A stretch of 64,000 bases of DNA, from NCBI RefSeq assembly GCF_029960785.1, contig NZ_JASBQE010000038.1:1-64000 (forward strand), written 5' to 3'. This document shows positions 3,342 through 50,183 of the stretch, piece after piece. This DNA is from Polyangium sp. 15x6. GTDB taxonomy: Bacteria > Myxococcota_A > Polyangia > Polyangiales > Polyangiaceae. A program made the position numbers and the translations under genes. How positions within the stretch are numbered: position 1 is the stretch's first letter; the number at the start of each line of letters is the position of its first letter. The notes under the pieces are model-generated. The model was not told the origin of the DNA and did not search any database. It saw only the letters and a program-made list of their open reading frames with translations.

Positions 3342-6300
3342 ATGTCCAAGGCTTCAAGGCGAACACCCTGCTCCCACGGGTCCAGGGTTCGTTCGCGGCC
3401 GCGCACAGGACGCGCGGCCTTGTGCTCCGCACTGATAGGCGCCTTGCTCGGGTGTACGAACGAGCAGCAGCCCGAGAACGGCGCACAGAGGGCTTCGACG
3501 CCCCCGAGCCACGCTCCTGCCCCGGTGCCCGCCGCGGGGCAGCTCGGGCTCGGCGACGTCATGCGGCGCGTGCACTTCGCGTTTCGCCCCGAAGGCGATT
3601 CGTTTCGTGGGGGCCACACGACGTATGCCGTACGCGCGGATGCGCGCTCGTTCGAGGTCGCGCCGTACCAACCCGCGGGGGAGGAGCCGGGGCGCGATGC
3701 GGTGAAAGGCGCCGCCTTCGTTGCCACGCTGGCGTCGATCGATCGCGGCGGCGTCTCTGCGTTAGGCGGAGGCGACACGCGGGCGGACCTTGATCCGAGC
3801 TCGCGCGTCGCCATCATGCACGGCGACGTGGTCGAGCACCTCGAAAATACCGAGCAGGGCGTCGAGCAGAGCTTTTCGTTCGCTGCGAAGCCCGAGGGCC
3901 GCGGGGATCTCGTGGTTCGGATTGCGGTCTCCGGGGAGATCTTTACGAAGGAGAACGAGGCCGGGCTTCACTTCGTGGATCCGGCGACGGGCCTCGGCGT
4001 ACGTTATGGCGTCGCGACGTGGATCGACGGGCGCGGGCAGAAGACCGCGGTGCCCGTCGACTTCGAGGAGGGGCACATCGTCTTGCGTGTGCCGGAGCGC
4101 GCGCTCGAGGAGAGCGCTTTCCCGGCCGTCCTGGATCCCGTGATCGGGCCCGAGTTCGGCATCGACCAGCCGATCTACGTGCCCGCGTACTACGGGCAGA
4201 CGGACCCGGCCGTCGCCTATGGCAATGGGCAGTATCTAGTCGTCTGGGAAGACGGACGCACGGCCGGCTCCGCGGAGCGTGACATTTATGGCGCGCGCGT
4301 CACGAGCGCGGGAGTCGTCCTCGATCAGACGGGCATCCTGATCTCGGCGGGGGCCAACGAGCAGGAAGCACCCGATCTCGCTTTCGACGGCACCAACTGG
4401 ATGGTGACGTGGACCGACAAGCGGATCTTCTCGAGCGGCGACATCTATGCCGCGCGTGTCAGCGGCAGCGGCACCGTGCTCGAACCCAATGGGAGGCAAA
4501 TCTCATCTGGCGGCGCCACGCATGGACCGTCGGCCATCTCGTTCGACGGAACGAAGTACTTCATCGTATACAAGAAAAACACCGGCGTCTACGGGCGCTT
4601 CGCGTCGCCCGCAGGTACGCTACAGCCTGAGGTCACCATCCAGAACTCCGGGGTGTACCTGGCCGACAGCGATGTCGACGTCGCATTCAACGGGTTGAAC
4701 TACCTCGTCGTCAGCGACTCGAAGACCAACAACGGCGGCTACTACGTCCGCGGCCACCGAGTGACGCCCGCGGGGGCCGTGCTCGGGACGGAAGACCTCT
4801 GCTCGGACTTCCAGTCCACCGAACCGTGCAATGCCGATCGTATGGAAGTCTCCTCCGACGGCACGAACTGGTTCGCCGTGTGGTCGGGCAAAGGCATGAT
4901 GGGTCAGCGTGTCACCAACTCCGGCGTGCTGCTCGACGGTATGGATGGCAAATCCCTTGGGCTCACGGGAGCCGTCGGCAGCGTCGTCTACGCAGGCGGC
5001 GTGTACAACGTCTTCGCCATTTTCGGCTTCGATGTTCGTGGCGCGCAATTCGACTCGCTCGGGAACATGACGACCCCGTGGGCCGCGCTCATCGGGGAGG
5101 CCGGAGGCTCGAGGCACGCCGCCTCCGCGGCGCACGACGGGACGAACATCTTCCTCGTCTTCGAGGACACCCGCGGCTCGAGCGAGTCCTCGGGCAACGA
5201 TATCTTCGGGCTGCGCCTCTCGAACGCGCTCGCCAAGCTCGATCCGGCGAGCCAGCGCATCACCCAGACGGCGCACACGCAGATGCGCCCCGCCGTCGCC
5301 TACAACGGGACGGACTACCTCGCCGTCTGGGAGGACATGCGCCATTCGTCGAGCTCGCGCGACGTCTTCGGGGCGCGGCTGAACTCCGACGGGGCGGTGC
5401 TCGATCCGAATGGCATTGAAATTGCGATGGCCGCAAGCCAACAGGGCGCACCCAGCGTCGCCGCGCTCGGTACCGATTGGCTGGTCGCCTGGCAAGACAG
5501 TCGCAATCTCGGGACCGACGACGTCTACGCCGCGCGGGTCAGCGGATCCGGGACCGTGTCGGACCCGCAGGGGATCCCGATCGTCACCGGCGCGGGCTTT
5601 CAGCGGGCCCCCGTCGTCTCGTCCGACGGCACGAACTGGCTCGTCGCCTGGCAGGACACCGTCACCCTCCAGATCTGGGCGAGCCGCGTCTCCCAGGCCG
5701 GGGCGGTGCTCGATCCGTCGGGCATTCAGATCTCGTCGAGCGGCGGGACGACGCCCGCTGTCGCGTACAACGGCACGAACTACCTTATCGCGTGGACGAG
5801 GCCCGGGGCGGGCGACGACGTCGTCGCTGCGCGGATGACGCCCGCCGGGACGGTGCTCGACACGGGAAACCTCGTCGTCCCTCTCGGGGTCACGGCGACA
5901 CGGGAGACGACCCCTTCCGTCGCCTCGAACGGCACGGATTGGCTCGTCACCTGGGAGAACGGCTACGACGCCAACGTCCGCGGCGCGCGCGTGAACAACG
6001 ACGGCACGATGCTCGATCCGACGGGGATCGACATCTCGACCGCGGCGAACCGGCAAGCGGCGTCCCGCGCAGCCTGGGACGGCGCGCAATACTGGGTCGT
6101 CTGGCAAGACGAGCGCGCCGTGAGCGGGCGGCAGGATCTTTATGGCGCGCGGATCACGCCCGGCGGCGTGGTGATGGATCCGACAGGCCTCGTCATCGCC
6201 AATGCTCAGAATCGAAATGAGCTGAGTCCCTCCATCGCCGCGGGGCCGTTCAAAGAGACGCTCCTCGTCTACCAGCGCTTCGAGCCCGCACAGCCCATCG

Positions 6301-10257: not shown

Positions 10258-10817
10258 GCGTTTCGACCCGTCTCCGCCCGATATCGGTTTCCCGAACCGG
10301 CGTTCGACCCTTCCTCGACGAAAAAACGGCTCCCTGAATCGCCTCGCGACGCGTCTTTCGCGCGGAAGGCTTCTCCCAAATTCGCCACGGAAGGGTCGTC
10401 TGTGAAACGATGGTCTTCCAAATCTCCTTCCGACCCGTCCGCGGCGCGTCGAGGAGAGGCGCGGTCCGGCAAGGAAGGGTCGCGGCGCCGCCGAGCCTTC
10501 CGTTTTTTGTGAAGGAAGGGTCGGGCGACAAAAAACGGAGCCGTTTTTTCGGCAAGGAAGGGTCGGCGGGCGGTTCAGCCTTTCAGGATCGGCGCGAGAC
10601 GGGTCGGAGTGTGGTTTCGGTAAAAAGTTGCCCCGCGCACACGCCTCCAGTGTCCTGGCTCGCATGCGTCGCCATGGGGTCCTCCTCCTCGCGGTCCTTC
10701 TCGTCCTGTGTGTGCCGTCTCTCGTCCGCGCGCAGATCCGCGTCTGCGTCAGGCCGCCTGATGTCGCGCCGAACGTGAACGAATGGGCCTATTCGCCGGG
10801 GGCGAAGGAGTGGCACG
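10258..10817. other. Gene-free stretch dominated by GGAAGGGTCG repeats
   Basis: 560 bp with no supportable gene. It holds the GGAAGGGTCG cluster described separately and, at its right end, the Shine-Dalgarno sequence (GAAGGAG) of the double-CXXCG gene. A hydrophobic-looking frame at 10628-10846 (RHGVLLLAVLLVLC) runs past the next gene's start and could be a decayed signal peptide. Confidence 0.5.
10304..10565. repeat. Cluster of GGAAGGGTCG repeats with T6/A6 flanks
   Basis: The ten-base word GGAAGGGTCG occurs on the + strand at about 10389, 10473, 10514 and 10555, and once in reverse complement at about 10304. The third and fourth copies belong to near-duplicates about 42 bp apart, CGTTTTTT..(G)AAGGAAGGGTCG; between and around them lie AAAAAACGG and CCGTTTTTT, which can pair. 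Unit spacing is irregular, so this is not a simple microsatellite. Confidence 0.75.
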
Positions 10818-46782: not shown

Positions 46783-47322
46783 TCAGGCGCCGCGGTGAAT
46801 GATCATCAAGAGCAACCGACCATCCGGCGTCTCGACCACCGAAACGTCGCGAAAGCCCGCCTTGCGATAACAAGCCACCGCGCGGCCATTCGTCGGATCC
46901 GGATCGGTCTGGATCTTGGTCACGCGCGGATCGGCGAACAGAAAATCGAGAAACGCGCGGACCATGCGGGTGCCGAGGCCTTTGCCGATACGCTCGGCGT
47001 CGGCGATGAACTGGTCGATGCCGAGCGCGCACGGGTCCGTCTCGTCGAGCCACCAGCCGTCGGCCTGGCTCGCCATGACCCGATACGCCTGGATGTACGC
47101 GAAAGGCTTTCCGTCCTCGCACGCGAGGTACGGAATGGCGCCGCCCGGAGCGTCGAGCGGCAAGGTACCGGCCTCCGCGAGGCACGGGAGGTACTCGTCG
47201 CGCAGCTCGTCGAGGGTCGGCGTGGGTTGCCACCATTCCGCGACGTGCGGGCGCGTGAGCCAGGCGTGCATCAAGGGGAGCTCGGCCTCGGTGAGGGGGC
47301 GGAAGGTGATGGGCGGAGGCAT
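46783..47322 (-). CDS. AAC(6')-Ib-like aminoglycoside 6'-N-acetyltransferase (GNAT)
   Basis: 179 residues from the ATG at 47322. The sequence is a GNAT acetyltransferase with the specific signatures of the AAC(6')-I group: WLTRPHVAEWWQP, EYLP, PYLACEDGKPFAYIQAY, DGWWLDETDP, GIDQFIADAERIGKGLGTRM (acetyl-CoA binding), VTKIQTDPDPTNGRAVACY and RKAGF. It would transfer acetyl to the 6' amine of aminoglycosides. Soil bacteria often carry such chromosomal homologues, and it need not confer resistance as expressed. It converges on the SpoIIAA-like gene. No integron site or IS flanks it directly; the integron-like cluster is 4 kb away. Confidence 0.85.
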   Translation of the reverse strand: MPPPITFRPLTEAELPLMHAWLTRPHVAEWWQPTPTLDELRDEYLPCLAEAGTLPLDAPGGAIPYLACEDGKPFAYIQAYRVMASQADGWWLDETDPCALGIDQFIADAERIGKGLGTRMVRAFLDFLFADPRVTKIQTDPDPTNGRAVACYRKAGFRDVSVVETPDGRLLLMIIHRGA

Positions 47323-47851
47323 GGGCGGGGAGTTTACCCCAGCCAGGGGCGTCGAGCGGCCTGGACGTGCCGGGGCGGGGGGCCGGTGGCTCGGGAGCGG
47401 GCCGCGGGCGAGGTGTCGTGTAGAACGTGGAGGTTGAACGCGTTCGAGATCGGCGGCTTTGGCCCGTTGAGCCTGATGAGCCGCAACGCGACGGGGCCGA
47501 TGGAACGGATGCTCTCCGCACCACGTTTCCGTGACGTTGATGCGGGGGTTCAAATCACCGTCACGCATGGAGGAGAGCAAGGGACCGGCACTCGGTCGGA
47601 GTGGAGCGCAAGAGTGTGCAACGGCAAGCACCAGGCGAAGACACGACGAAGCATCGGCAGCCCCTCGGTGGTCTCAGGTCACGCCACACCACTCCCGCGG
47701 CGGTGAGCGGCCCTGCGTTCTTCCCTGGGGCGCCTCGTGCCACGGAGGCCGACGAGCTGGCGAGAGCGTCGCCGGGACACTCGGACCCACGTCGTCCACG
47801 CCAAAGCCAGCCGTTCCGCGCGCGTCAGCGGCTCACGAAGGCTGGTGCCCC
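47323..47851. other. Gene-free region left of the GTAC array
   Basis: 530 bp without a convincing gene. A 7-bp inverted repeat (CGTGACG at 47530-47536, CGTCACG at 47559-47565) encloses GGGGGTTCAAATCAC, which resembles a tRNA T-arm loop, but no full tRNA cloverleaf could be built around it. Degenerate relatives of the array box may continue left (GTTC at 47813). Confidence 0.5.
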
Positions 47852-48183
47852 GTACCGAACCACGCGCCACCCGGCGCGGCGAAACGAGCCGCGTACAGGT
47901 CGCCGCGTCAGCCGCCGTCGCGCGTTACGCTCGCGTACAAGAAAGCTCGCCAGCGGCATGCGCGGCGCTCGGGCCGTACAAAAGGGGACGGCGGCGGCCG
48001 AGGAGCCGCAAAGGCCCGTACCGATCGACGCATGACCGGCCGGCGTCCGTCTCCCCGCCGTACAACTCCGTGGCGCGGCCGCCCTTCTCCGCGATGCGCG
48101 CGTACACGAAGCCTCCTCGGCGGCGCGTTGACGCGCCTGTACGTGCCGCTGCGCGGGTGAAGCGCTGCGCTGCGGTTTTGTAC
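47852..48183. repeat. Phased array of nine GTAC boxes at 41-42 bp intervals
   Basis: GTAC occurs at 47852, 47893, 47935, 47976, 48018, 48060, 48102, 48139 and 48180. The intervals are 41, 42, 41, 42, 42, 42, 37 and 41 bp. A GTAG at 48221 continues the period. The base before the box is usually C, and C/G-rich; A often follows. The DNA between boxes is not conserved, so this is a set of short sites with fixed spacing and not a normal tandem repeat. The mixed 41/42 spacing rules out a coding repeat and is close to four helical turns, which would place all boxes on one face of the DNA. It lies immediately upstream of the promoter of the 48234 gene. Confidence 0.85.
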
Positions 48184-48197
48184 GTCAACATAGGATC

Positions 48198-48227
48198 TTG
48201 CATCCGTGCCGCCGCTTCGTGTAGCGT
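48198..48227 (+). promoter_or_regulatory. Predicted promoter of the coiled-coil gene
   Basis: TTGCAT (48198-48203), an 18-bp spacer and TAGCGT (48222-48227), followed 6 bp later by the ATG at 48234 with no ribosome site. A leaderless message is predicted. The last clear GTAC box ends 14 bp before the -35 hexamer. Confidence 0.5.
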
Positions 48228-48233
48228 CCCACC

Positions 48234-49112
48234 ATGCGGCTCAGGACATTCGATACCGACATCGCGCCGCTCCCCGTTCGGGAGCACCTCATTTACTCGC
48301 TGGGGATGTGCGAGAACCACGTTCTCGCAAAGCAACACGTCGTCGTGTTCTCGACGCTGCTCGACCATTGGCAGGCCACGTTCGCGCAATTCTTGGCGCT
48401 GCAGGACAAGATCTCCCGGGCGGAGGCCCGCATCGATGCCTGTGACGACACGCTCGACGTGTTCGTGGACGACGTCGCGGACGCGCTGCTGTACGGCAAC
48501 AACGATCGCACGTCGGCCGAGTTCCGGTCCTTCTTCGGCTCGAAGCAACCCCACGAGATCAAGCGGCCCATCCTGGGCGAAGAGCTGGAAACCGTGCGCG
48601 CGTGGATCTCGGCGCTGAAGAATTCGCCGAAGCCGCTGCTCGTGGAGCTCGGCGCACGAGGGGAAGTTTTGGTGGCGAATGCGGATCAAGCGGTCACCGC
48701 GCTCGGGCTCGCGCAGCAGGAGTTTCGGACGTTCCGTCTCACGGGTGGATACAGCCAATTCATCGACGCCGTGAACACAGGCCGGAAAACGGTGTACGCC
48801 GAGCTCGGAAAGCTGCGGCATCAGCCCGAAGGAAAGGGGCTGCCTGCGGATTTCGCGGATCAGTTTTTCCGCCACGAGCCGCGACGGAACAAGAAGCAAA
48901 CGGTCGAGGCCGTGCGCGCGAGGATCGCAGCGCTGATGGCCGAGCTGGAGAAGGAGACGGCCGCACTGGCAGCGCTGGAGGCGAAGGCCAAGGGCGCGGA
49001 GGAGGCCGAGCAGGCGCGGAAAGGGCTGGAGGCGGAGCTTGCTGCCGCCGAGCAGGCGCGCGCCGAGCTGGAGAAGAAGACGGCGGAGATCAAGGCCAAG
49101 CTGAAGCGGTAG
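48234..49112 (+). CDS. Coiled-coil protein of unknown function downstream of the GTAC array
   Basis: 292 residues. The first about 200 residues are helical and contain LIYSLGMCENHVLAKQHVVV, DDTLDVFVDDVADALLYG and LRLTGGYSQFIDAVNTGRK-like amphipathic segments. The last about 75 residues are a long Glu/Lys/Ala-rich coiled coil (AELEKETAALAALEAKAKGA to ELEKKTAEIKAKLKR). There is no signal peptide, membrane helix or recognised catalytic motif. It starts right after the GTAC array and its promoter, so the array probably controls this gene or its product acts on the array. No recognised family; a structural or DNA-associated role is only a guess. Confidence 0.75.
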   Translation: MRLRTFDTDIAPLPVREHLIYSLGMCENHVLAKQHVVVFSTLLDHWQATFAQFLALQDKISRAEARIDACDDTLDVFVDDVADALLYGNNDRTSAEFRSFFGSKQPHEIKRPILGEELETVRAWISALKNSPKPLLVELGARGEVLVANADQAVTALGLAQQEFRTFRLTGGYSQFIDAVNTGRKTVYAELGKLRHQPEGKGLPADFADQFFRHEPRRNKKQTVEAVRARIAALMAELEKETAALAALEAKAKGAEEAEQARKGLEAELAAAEQARAELEKKTAEIKAKLKR

Positions 49113-49550
49113 AGGGCAGGGGCGCTTCCGCTGCCGCTGCCGCTTCCGCTTCGGATTCCGGAGACCCTCACCCGTCGTGACCCGACGCGTACGGCGCTGC
49201 TCGCGGTGCTCATCCAGAGCGAGATCACGGCCGCTGCGGCGGGGGATGTCGAGCTCGTAGCCATTTCGCACGACGCCGCAGGCAAGCATCCTCACGATGC
49301 ACCCCGTGGGCGACCCATCGATCGACGCCCCGCGCGCGGCCCATAGCGCGGTAGGGAAGCTCCTCGACGCGATGATGGTGGCCACGCGCCGAGGTAGCCC
49401 CCGTCGGCGCAGGCGACCCAAGTAAGCGCAGGTCCGCCAAGGTAACGACAAACTCGCGGCGAGCGCGCATCGGCGGATTGCGAGTTCCCGGCCCAGGGCA
49501 GCGCGCGGGCGGCGGCGGGCGCGCCGGGCCGGAGACCTCGCAATCAGCGG
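49113..49550. other. Region with decayed coding pattern and a CTTCCG/CTGCCG tract
   Basis: A pyrimidine-rich tract of CCGCTT and CTGCCG words lies at about 49128-49155. On the minus strand, protein-like pieces occur in different frames ([15 protein letters not shown] near 49560; GCIVRMLACGVVRNGYELDI near 49250-49320), suggesting that the collagen-like gene once continued here or that another gene has decayed through frameshifts. Confidence 0.4.
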
Positions 49551-49982
49551 TCATGTGGGCGAATGTGTCGACGACGTCCTTGGGGAGCGGCGAAGGGGCG
49601 GCGAGACATGGCCTACGGCGCCGAGCGCGCCTGTCGCACCCGTCGCGCCGGTCGCACCCGTGGGACCGACTGCGCCTGTCGCACCCGTCGCGCCGGTCGG
49701 CCCCGTGGGACCGGTGGGGCCCGTAGGACCGGTAGGACCGGTAGGGCCTGTAGGACCGGTGGGGCCCGTAGCACCGACGGGTTTCGCATTGCCGCTGGGA
49801 CCGGCGGGGCCGAGTGTCTGGAGAGCTTCGCGGCTCATCGCCGAGTGCTCGGTGTCGTCTTCCGGGGTCGTGGAGTCTTCCGGCACTCCGATGCATCCCC
49901 CCGCGACGGCGACGAGCAGCGCAGCAACGCAACCGTGCGTCGCCGAGGGCCATCCAGGACAGCGGCGCTTCATCATATTCAT
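49551..49982 (-). CDS. Collagen-like (GPTG repeat) lipoprotein, probably frameshifted at the 3' end
   Basis: 143 residues from the ATG at 49982 (GGGAGAG upstream). The signal peptide ends in a lipobox (VAGGC). After an acidic Thr/Glu linker, about 20 G-x-y triplets follow ([18 protein letters not shown]), the collagen-like pattern that can form a triple helix on the cell surface. The underlying DNA is a run of near-identical 9-bp words and is prone to slippage. After the repeats the frame ends in an unlike tail ([17 protein letters not shown]), while a neighbouring frame keeps a protein-like sequence, so a frameshift is likely just after the repeats. Confidence 0.65.
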
Positions 49983-50183
49983 GGTTCTCTCCCGCGAAGA
50001 CCGTCGAGCACATATCCTCGAAAAAGCGGACTGTCGCGATTCGTCGCCCAGTCGGGAGGGCGACCTTGCCATGTTTTTTTCTTGTCGCCATCTGATGGGT
50101 GCCAGGAGCCACGGCTAAAGCAGGGTCGTACAAGCTTGTCGTTACGCCTCGTACAAAATTGGTTCATCGCCGTCGATGCATTC

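Follow-up and report, generated by a model that had tools for sequence, protein, structure and literature searches.

Bacterial operators usually share a recognisable sequence, CRISPR arrays carry a conserved repeat of about 25–36 bp, and the tandem repeats of ToxI antitoxin RNAs are near-identical. The relevant sections of work on Streptomyces (PMC6428758) describe BldC operators with a variable number of promoter boxes filled as a cooperative row; the occupied regions are often broad, and the boxes are direct repeats set close together with one AT-rich consensus. For myxobacteria, the portions of PMC9304148 that concern CarH and CarA describe tandem direct repeats on one face of the DNA that overlap the −35 or −10, in three to five copies of an 11-bp, one-turn repeat with a single consensus. 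TIGR-Tas arrays, as set out in extracts from PMC12045711, are regular, with locus-specific repeats beside a helical-protein gene; the dual-repeat kind combines two alternating repeats of 8–12 nt, mostly 9-nt spacers, 36-nt RNAs, a terminator at the end and a Nop-domain protein, and a second kind has sequences that vary but are consistently palindromic and form stem-loops. Type III toxin–antitoxin loci, in the part of PMC8860590 that treats ToxI, have tandem repeats immediately ahead of a protein gene, with ToxI following its −10 and then a terminator.

We analysed a 64,000-nucleotide stretch of DNA from Polyangium sp. 15x6 (the window), in which a row of GTAC boxes precedes a gene for an all-helical protein. 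Our results suggest, with a probability of roughly 0.6, that this row is a phased double-stranded operator array that would be bound cooperatively on one DNA face and would control the adjoining promoter. It is one example of an apparently undescribed class of element in soil myxobacteria. Other loci (L), genomes (G) and contigs (C) are given by our own numbers.

GTAC boxes upstream of a helical-protein gene

The array occupies positions 47851–48183, with no strand assigned. Its nine GTAC boxes lie at 47852, 47893, 47935, 47976, 48018, 48060, 48102, 48139 and 48180, exactly where an earlier note on this DNA had placed them, and the box-to-box intervals are 41, 42, 41, 42, 42, 42, 37 and 41 bp, so that seven of the eight are 41 or 42 bp as it had claimed, the odd one being 37. 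CGTA is as regular as GTAC over the first seven boxes, and most boxes read CGTAC(a). Fitting eight units to the array showed that CGTACa is conserved and little else, with CGTAC in seven units and CGTGC (48142) in the eighth; each unit keeps a box of 5–6 bp and has about 36 bp of variable, near-random sequence, bearing out the description of the spacers as unrelated.

The regular spacing of the GTAC boxes was confirmed as real by shuffling. GTAC occurs 149 times in the window, and its longest chain at any period of 15–79 bp (±1) has seven members, whereas the whole window, shuffled 60 times with dinucleotides preserved, gave two (58 times) or three (twice). When any 4-mer was admitted, shuffling the local 451 bp 300 times never produced a chain longer than six (reached four times); with GTAC only, the maximum over 3,000 local shuffles was three. 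Counting against the uniqueness of the chain length, CGCG (1,459 copies) forms a chain of seven elsewhere in the window. GTAC by itself is rejected as a signal across the genome: the pattern GTACN{36,39}GTACN{36,39}GTAC matches the organism's own genome (G000) at 18 forward places, five of them overlapping within the window array, and this plain count proves nothing because the reversed control with CATG has 86. The GTAC-pattern places in C90, C164, C243 and C248 were tandem arrays and led to the wider class described below.

A coding repeat is rejected, in agreement with the earlier note, since intervals of 41 and 37 bp break any reading frame and no open reading frame survived gene calling between the acetyltransferase region and 48234. 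The array was also rightly held not to be a CRISPR, the conserved box in the window being so short. Whole-unit likeness of the minisatellite or VNTR kind is rejected for the window too, where only the box is common to the units.

The gene that follows (48234–49112, plus strand) encodes 292 residues and belongs to a paralogous family; its structure model is all-helical with a long C-terminal helix (pLDDT 95.4, pTM 0.77). Two weak promoter-like hexamers precede it on the plus strand. TTGCAT (48198–48203), a weak match identified as −35-like by analogy with the family, stands 18 bp before the −10-like TAGCGT (48222–48227), which is weak by consensus and ends 6 bp before the ATG, so that a leaderless mRNA is possible. 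A consensus promoter scan of 47322–48300 reported none. The −10-like hexamer holds most of the GTAG at 48221, previously counted as a tenth box; GTAG keeps the phase, but it is part of TGTAGCGT, immediately in front of the ATG, where the −10 stands in many related genes, and we do not retain it as a box. Downstream of the family gene, a collagen-like repeat gene is encoded on the minus strand at 49554–50072 (Pfam Collagen, E = 9.5e-9).

Similar promoter-like signals recur in the family. Over 104 ATG starts, TAnnnT has 35 occurrences in the range −14 to −12 and no more than five at any other position, so that about a third of starts show a promoter-like signal in the stretch from array to ATG; by eye, and uncounted, many of these have a TTGAC- or CTTG-like stretch upstream of TAnnnT. 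In two clades that were aligned, the last array unit reaches into the presumed promoter. The TAnnnT signal fits leaderless mRNAs with a predicted promoter after the array.

A family of helical proteins and a shared 41–43 bp spacing

A first homology search matched the protein in 26 of 144 related genomes and at 12 or more places in its own genome, and a 50-row profile matched 51 of 377 genomes of the phylum; copy numbers per genome are lower bounds because at most 16 candidates per genome were scored in the first search and at most six with the profile. No convincing Pfam, NCBIfam or PADLOC family was found for 50 members. The lowest Pfam E-value was 6e-5 (DUF4123, one member); the NCBIfam coiled-coil models TIGR04211 and ASRP matched eight and seven members at E no better than 0.002, SEC10/PgrA (5e-4) and AnkC (3e-4) matched one or two, and the PADLOC model LmuB matched 12 (best 8e-4), all of which we took for coiled-coil similarity. 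With the structure model, Foldseek returned nothing at E ≤ 0.001, and the fold search gave generic helical matches, the best VIA-align Z of 9.5 (LemA) lying in the range called generic for helical bundles. Relatives were absent from phage and plasmid collections by tblastn. Assignment to a known family is rejected, as neither sequence libraries nor folds gave a convincing match. The closest relative of the window protein (L048:6519–7232, contig C31 of G004) is 86% identical and does not have its first 55 residues; other DNA, with no array, lies upstream of it.

Periodicity of 41–43 bp is widespread upstream of these genes. It exceeded all 200 dinucleotide shuffles in 52 of 75 family upstream regions when scored at lags of 42, 84 and 126 bp (±1, 2 and 3), with z = 4.6 for the window region; the other 23 were not above all shuffles and count against an operator. 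The period is specific, in that 53 of the 75 regions had z > 3 at 42 and only 4–9 did at periods of 25, 31, 34, 37, 39 or 45; a control period of 28 reached 23 because 3 × 28 = 84. A first self-similarity test on 76 loci, seven of them wrongly oriented, gave a combined z upstream of 24.3 at lag 42, 14.0 at 84 and 10.3 at 126, and in the gene body lag 42 was outside the ten highest lags. In the same partly mis-oriented set, lag 42 ranked first downstream as well, at a combined z of 11.6, and reached 9.9 further upstream, near other lags there, and we count both against an operator. A second set of 40 loci, chosen for score and taxonomic spread among the profile matches listed, gave combined z-scores of 14.1 at lag 42 and 10.9 at lag 84 (39 usable loci), and strong 42 or 43 bp arrays were present at six of eight loci in three genomes of another taxonomic family (G367, G416 and G436).

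It is the spacing and not GTAC that these loci have in common. The box varies from locus to locus, so the expectation that homologues would carry regularly spaced GTAC stood for the regularity, many arrays being equally regular, and did not stand for the letters, GTAC being mostly absent and other boxes taking its place. L143 of G436 has GTAC in ten of 11 units at exactly 43 bp, a recurrence that may be coincidental. Arrays have up to 13 units in fits, from which spacing counts should be read knowing that the fit favours 41–43 bp. Tandem copies that match along the whole unit occur in some arrays of the class (L079, L139 and L216), and two conserved stretches per unit in some others (L073). 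In L037, 500–756 bp upstream of the homology start, a further repeat block is present first in one orientation and afterwards reverse-complemented.

The same arrays are rare in front of other genes. One detector (threshold 9) scored 57 of 113 family upstream regions, compared with 5 of 472 for G000, 7 of 223 for G005 (same genus) and 0 of 253 for G024 (same taxonomic family, no family gene detected); control genes came from heuristic gene calls, and the G000 control is conservative because at least two family genes remain in its sample. At threshold 11, sliding-window scans of 847 kb of G000 yielded seven 42/43 bp arrays, among them the window array and the family member L062, which reappeared as L209. 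The scans gave eleven such arrays over 391 kb of G005 and no 41–43 bp array in 394 kb of G024. Two of the G005 arrays are doubtful, as L232 has a 21-bp sub-period and L234 lies inside a predicted 1,334-codon open reading frame. The other periods met most often in the scans were 27 and 60 (G000), 48 (G005) and 36 (G024). By rough extrapolation, a Polyangium genome would hold one to a few hundred arrays. We found no earlier description of such arrays among the best-ranked titles and abstracts listed; the earlier note likewise knew of no system so arranged.

The neighbourhood of the helical-protein genes has no universal partner. A single-linkage neighbour group covers seven loci, and five of its listed members (L053, L054, L057, L058 and L060) have a lipoprotein-like N terminus in common. 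Lipoprotein-like genes with similar N termini adjoin arrays at L057:5259–6827, L058:2123–3718, L269:5350–6894 and L271:5308–6819, those of L057 and L058 being divergent from the helical-protein gene. Pfam assigns nuclease toxin domains to the L057 and L269 neighbours (Tox-GHH and HNH, respectively), and these lipoprotein-like genes look like polymorphic antibacterial toxins. Three other small proteins, probably helical by eye, are encoded behind a 42-bp array at L052:1405–2178, L050 (about 4180–4854) and L199:14191–14685; the family profile did not match those of L050 and L052. Arrays also adjoin PAS-STAS genes: at L217:15590–15960, eight units of exactly 42 bp, whose boxes are CCACAyGTG-like and whose spacers are random, precede a gene for a PAS-STAS domain protein, and in L287 such a gene is near a TTGC-box array.

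Box symmetry, box classes and rival explanations

We compared the boxes of 67 arrays (49 fits that scored ≥ 60 with four or more units, plus 18 scan arrays) with column shuffles, a control that ignores neighbour effects. A palindromic box was found at p ≤ 0.01 in 22 arrays and at p ≤ 0.05 in 31; the remaining 36 gave none at p ≤ 0.05. The window array is among the latter (p = 0.68), the test needing at least four pairs and GTAC having two; GTACGTAC of L143 gave p = 0.06. Some palindromes leave no room for an RNA loop, such as CCACAyGTG in L217 and TCGAACGTTCGA in L237 and L238. The frequency of palindromic boxes fits a dimeric protein. The earlier suggestion that boxes on one face would serve the cooperative binding of such a protein is thus supported in kind, by a spacing of about four turns and by palindromes in 31 of 67 arrays, and not by the window array's own palindrome test.

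A second phased array in the window (10258–10606, no strand assigned) repeats the box GGAAGGGTCG about every 42 bp with some boxes reversed. In one register the box stands in both orientations, on the minus strand at 10305 and 10431 (one mismatch) and on the plus strand at 10389, 10473, 10514 and 10556; a reverse copy with one mismatch at 10492 is out of register. This one array provides the evidence for in-register flips. A short open reading frame at 10664 adjoins it and resembles, by eye, the N terminus of the array-associated lipoprotein family.

For the most part, boxes are also better conserved than spacers. With boxes defined from one species and scored among others, box columns were more conserved than spacer columns in 14 of 15 comparisons, by 0.02 to 0.28, and the reverse held in one, by 0.01. 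Sixteen comparisons had been made, one without spacer columns; they come from four clades, so they are not independent, and three rest on fewer than 60 spacer pairs. L061 has one extra unit of exactly 42 bp relative to its orthologues.

One box class recurs at many loci. TTGC-N5/7-GCAA occurs in the family arrays L160, L161, L167 and L035 and in other arrays, namely L219 (12 units, exactly 43 bp), L230 and L231. The two-box pattern TTGCN{4,7}GCAAN{27,31}TTGC matches G005 at 60 forward and 55 reverse sites, compared with 17 and 10 for the reversed control, and with the two strands summed it outnumbers that control in each of the five tested genomes of the genus (62/39 in G000, 33/18 in G001, 57/23 in G003, 37/21 in G004 and 115/27 in G005); it is slightly above control in G048 (34/24) and below it in G024 (26/60) and G023 (5/26). 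Under a strict script, 15 of 20 regions around such sites had at least two in-phase boxes and five did not. Among the neighbouring genes are those for family members (L278 and L279), a lipoprotein ending in an HNH nuclease domain (L269), one with a similar N terminus (L271), a RelA/SpoT-domain protein (L272), a DUF2169 protein (L287) and an esterase (L274). Given this variety, the factor that binds the boxes may be encoded elsewhere than in the adjoining gene.

These observations bear on three other explanations. Arrays might be structural chromosome elements that nucleate a nucleoid or chromosome-organising protein, with nearness to genes secondary. Such a role would suit several box classes with one spacing, the dispersal of one-class arrays over at least 9.4 of the 13.2 Mb of G005 among the matches listed, and the arrays that the heuristic gene caller places between convergent genes (L219, L225, L230 and L216), which an operator leaves unexplained; the strong enrichment directly upstream of one gene family and the running of the array phase into promoter-like sequence speak against it, and we consider it unlikely. 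Decay of minisatellites, in which tandem duplication of about 42 bp was followed by drift and the arrays have no present function, would account for the exact unit duplication in L061 and for the several near-perfect arrays. It sits poorly with a length held at 41–43 bp among unrelated sequences, with window units that keep CGTAC in seven of eight and are nearly random elsewhere, with boxes conserved between species and inverted in register, and with the rarity of other periods in the family; this is the explanation we find most improbable.

An array of small RNAs, whether TIGR-like guides or a repeat RNA of the type III antitoxin kind, working with the helical protein, would match units of about 42 nt with locus-specific repeats adjoining a helical-protein gene, and some units could form hairpins. 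TIGR arrays are locus-specific as well, and palindromes alone do not exclude them because, in the extracts of PMC12045711, the second TIGR kind consistently has palindromic stem-loops; stem-loop TIGR is the best RNA alternative. Several results stand against an RNA array. The window array folded no better than its shuffles on either strand (z = −1.4 and −0.9), and a consensus base pair was absent from the sense strand in 17 of 49 unit alignments and present in the others, in some strongly. No terminator-like site was found on either strand of 47322–48300, promoter-like signals lie downstream of the array, and Rfam gave no match up to E = 1 in 47300–49800; loop-less palindromes and in-register flips are likewise unexpected of an RNA. 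The suggestion of an RNA of repeated units, which had been offered alongside protein binding, is thus disfavoured, less so for arrays whose units form hairpins, and we consider it quite unlikely.

Proposed operator rows compared with known systems

The operator row that we favour would work as follows. With boxes every 41–43 bp, about four turns of B-DNA, neighbours would lie on one side of the helix; a DNA-binding protein, probably a dimer, would fill them cooperatively, and the resulting one-sided nucleoprotein row would reach the promoter of the helical-protein gene and control that gene. Repression is the simplest form of such control because the array phase runs on into the presumed promoter. 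One factor may serve each box class, as the presence of the TTGC-N6-GCAA box in many arrays of the genus suggests. The shared spacing, its excess over chance, the palindromes, the box conservation and the promoter-like signals support this at the level of sequence; from them we infer binding, cooperativity and repression. Against this, arrays of exact period 41, 42 and 43 bp all exist, so that with 10.5 bp per turn a long array drifts out of strict phase.

We also advance, tentatively and at less than even odds, a broader interpretation, in which the arrays form a class of Myxococcota regulatory DNA that conserves a ruler and not a sequence. There would be at least about 100 arrays per Polyangium genome, with short, often palindromic boxes of several classes. 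They would lie beside the paralogous genes for helical proteins and at some loci for nuclease-type toxins or a RelA/SpoT-domain protein, and DNA-binding proteins of one diversified family, all with the same filament geometry, would read them. Motif searches would miss such arrays because unrelated sequences share only the spacing of about four turns. If they are operator rows, they would represent a regulatory system whose geometry is fixed and whose boxes can be exchanged, linked to a large and uncharacterised family of proteins. The TTGC-N6-GCAA class, being in many arrays of one genus, offers a direct bait for the binding protein.

Regular spacing, often palindromic repeats and unrelated spacers are shared with CRISPR, from which the arrays differ in their far shorter, degenerate repeat and in orientation flips within one array. 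The two arrays searched for phage matches, the window's and that of L219, had none. The position of the repeats is that of ToxI in the part of PMC8860590 cited above, but in the present arrays the promoter-like signals come after the boxes, units of the window have little in common outside the 5–6 bp box, no family of type III endoribonuclease toxins is among the matches listed for 50 members (25 of 48 Pfam, 25 of 29 NCBIfam and all 18 PADLOC families), and the structure model is all-helical. Relative to dual-repeat TIGR arrays, the window unit has one short box and about 36 bp of variable sequence, with no terminator-like site, and a Nop domain was absent from the 25 of 48 Pfam families listed for the 50 members and from 22 PDB sequence matches. 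As some of the features that define them were looked for and are absent, the array is not classed with dual-repeat TIGR, CRISPR or type III antitoxin systems. A fixed spacing near whole helical turns, a feature of the operator type, is found here at 41–43 bp. The extracts of PMC6428758 and PMC9304148 mark the differences in scale: close-set repeats with one consensus in BldC operators, and one-turn repeats in three to five copies with one consensus in CarH and CarA operators, compared with steps of about four turns, up to 13 units and many locus-variable boxes in the arrays described here. On this comparison, the arrays would work most like BldC or CarH operators.
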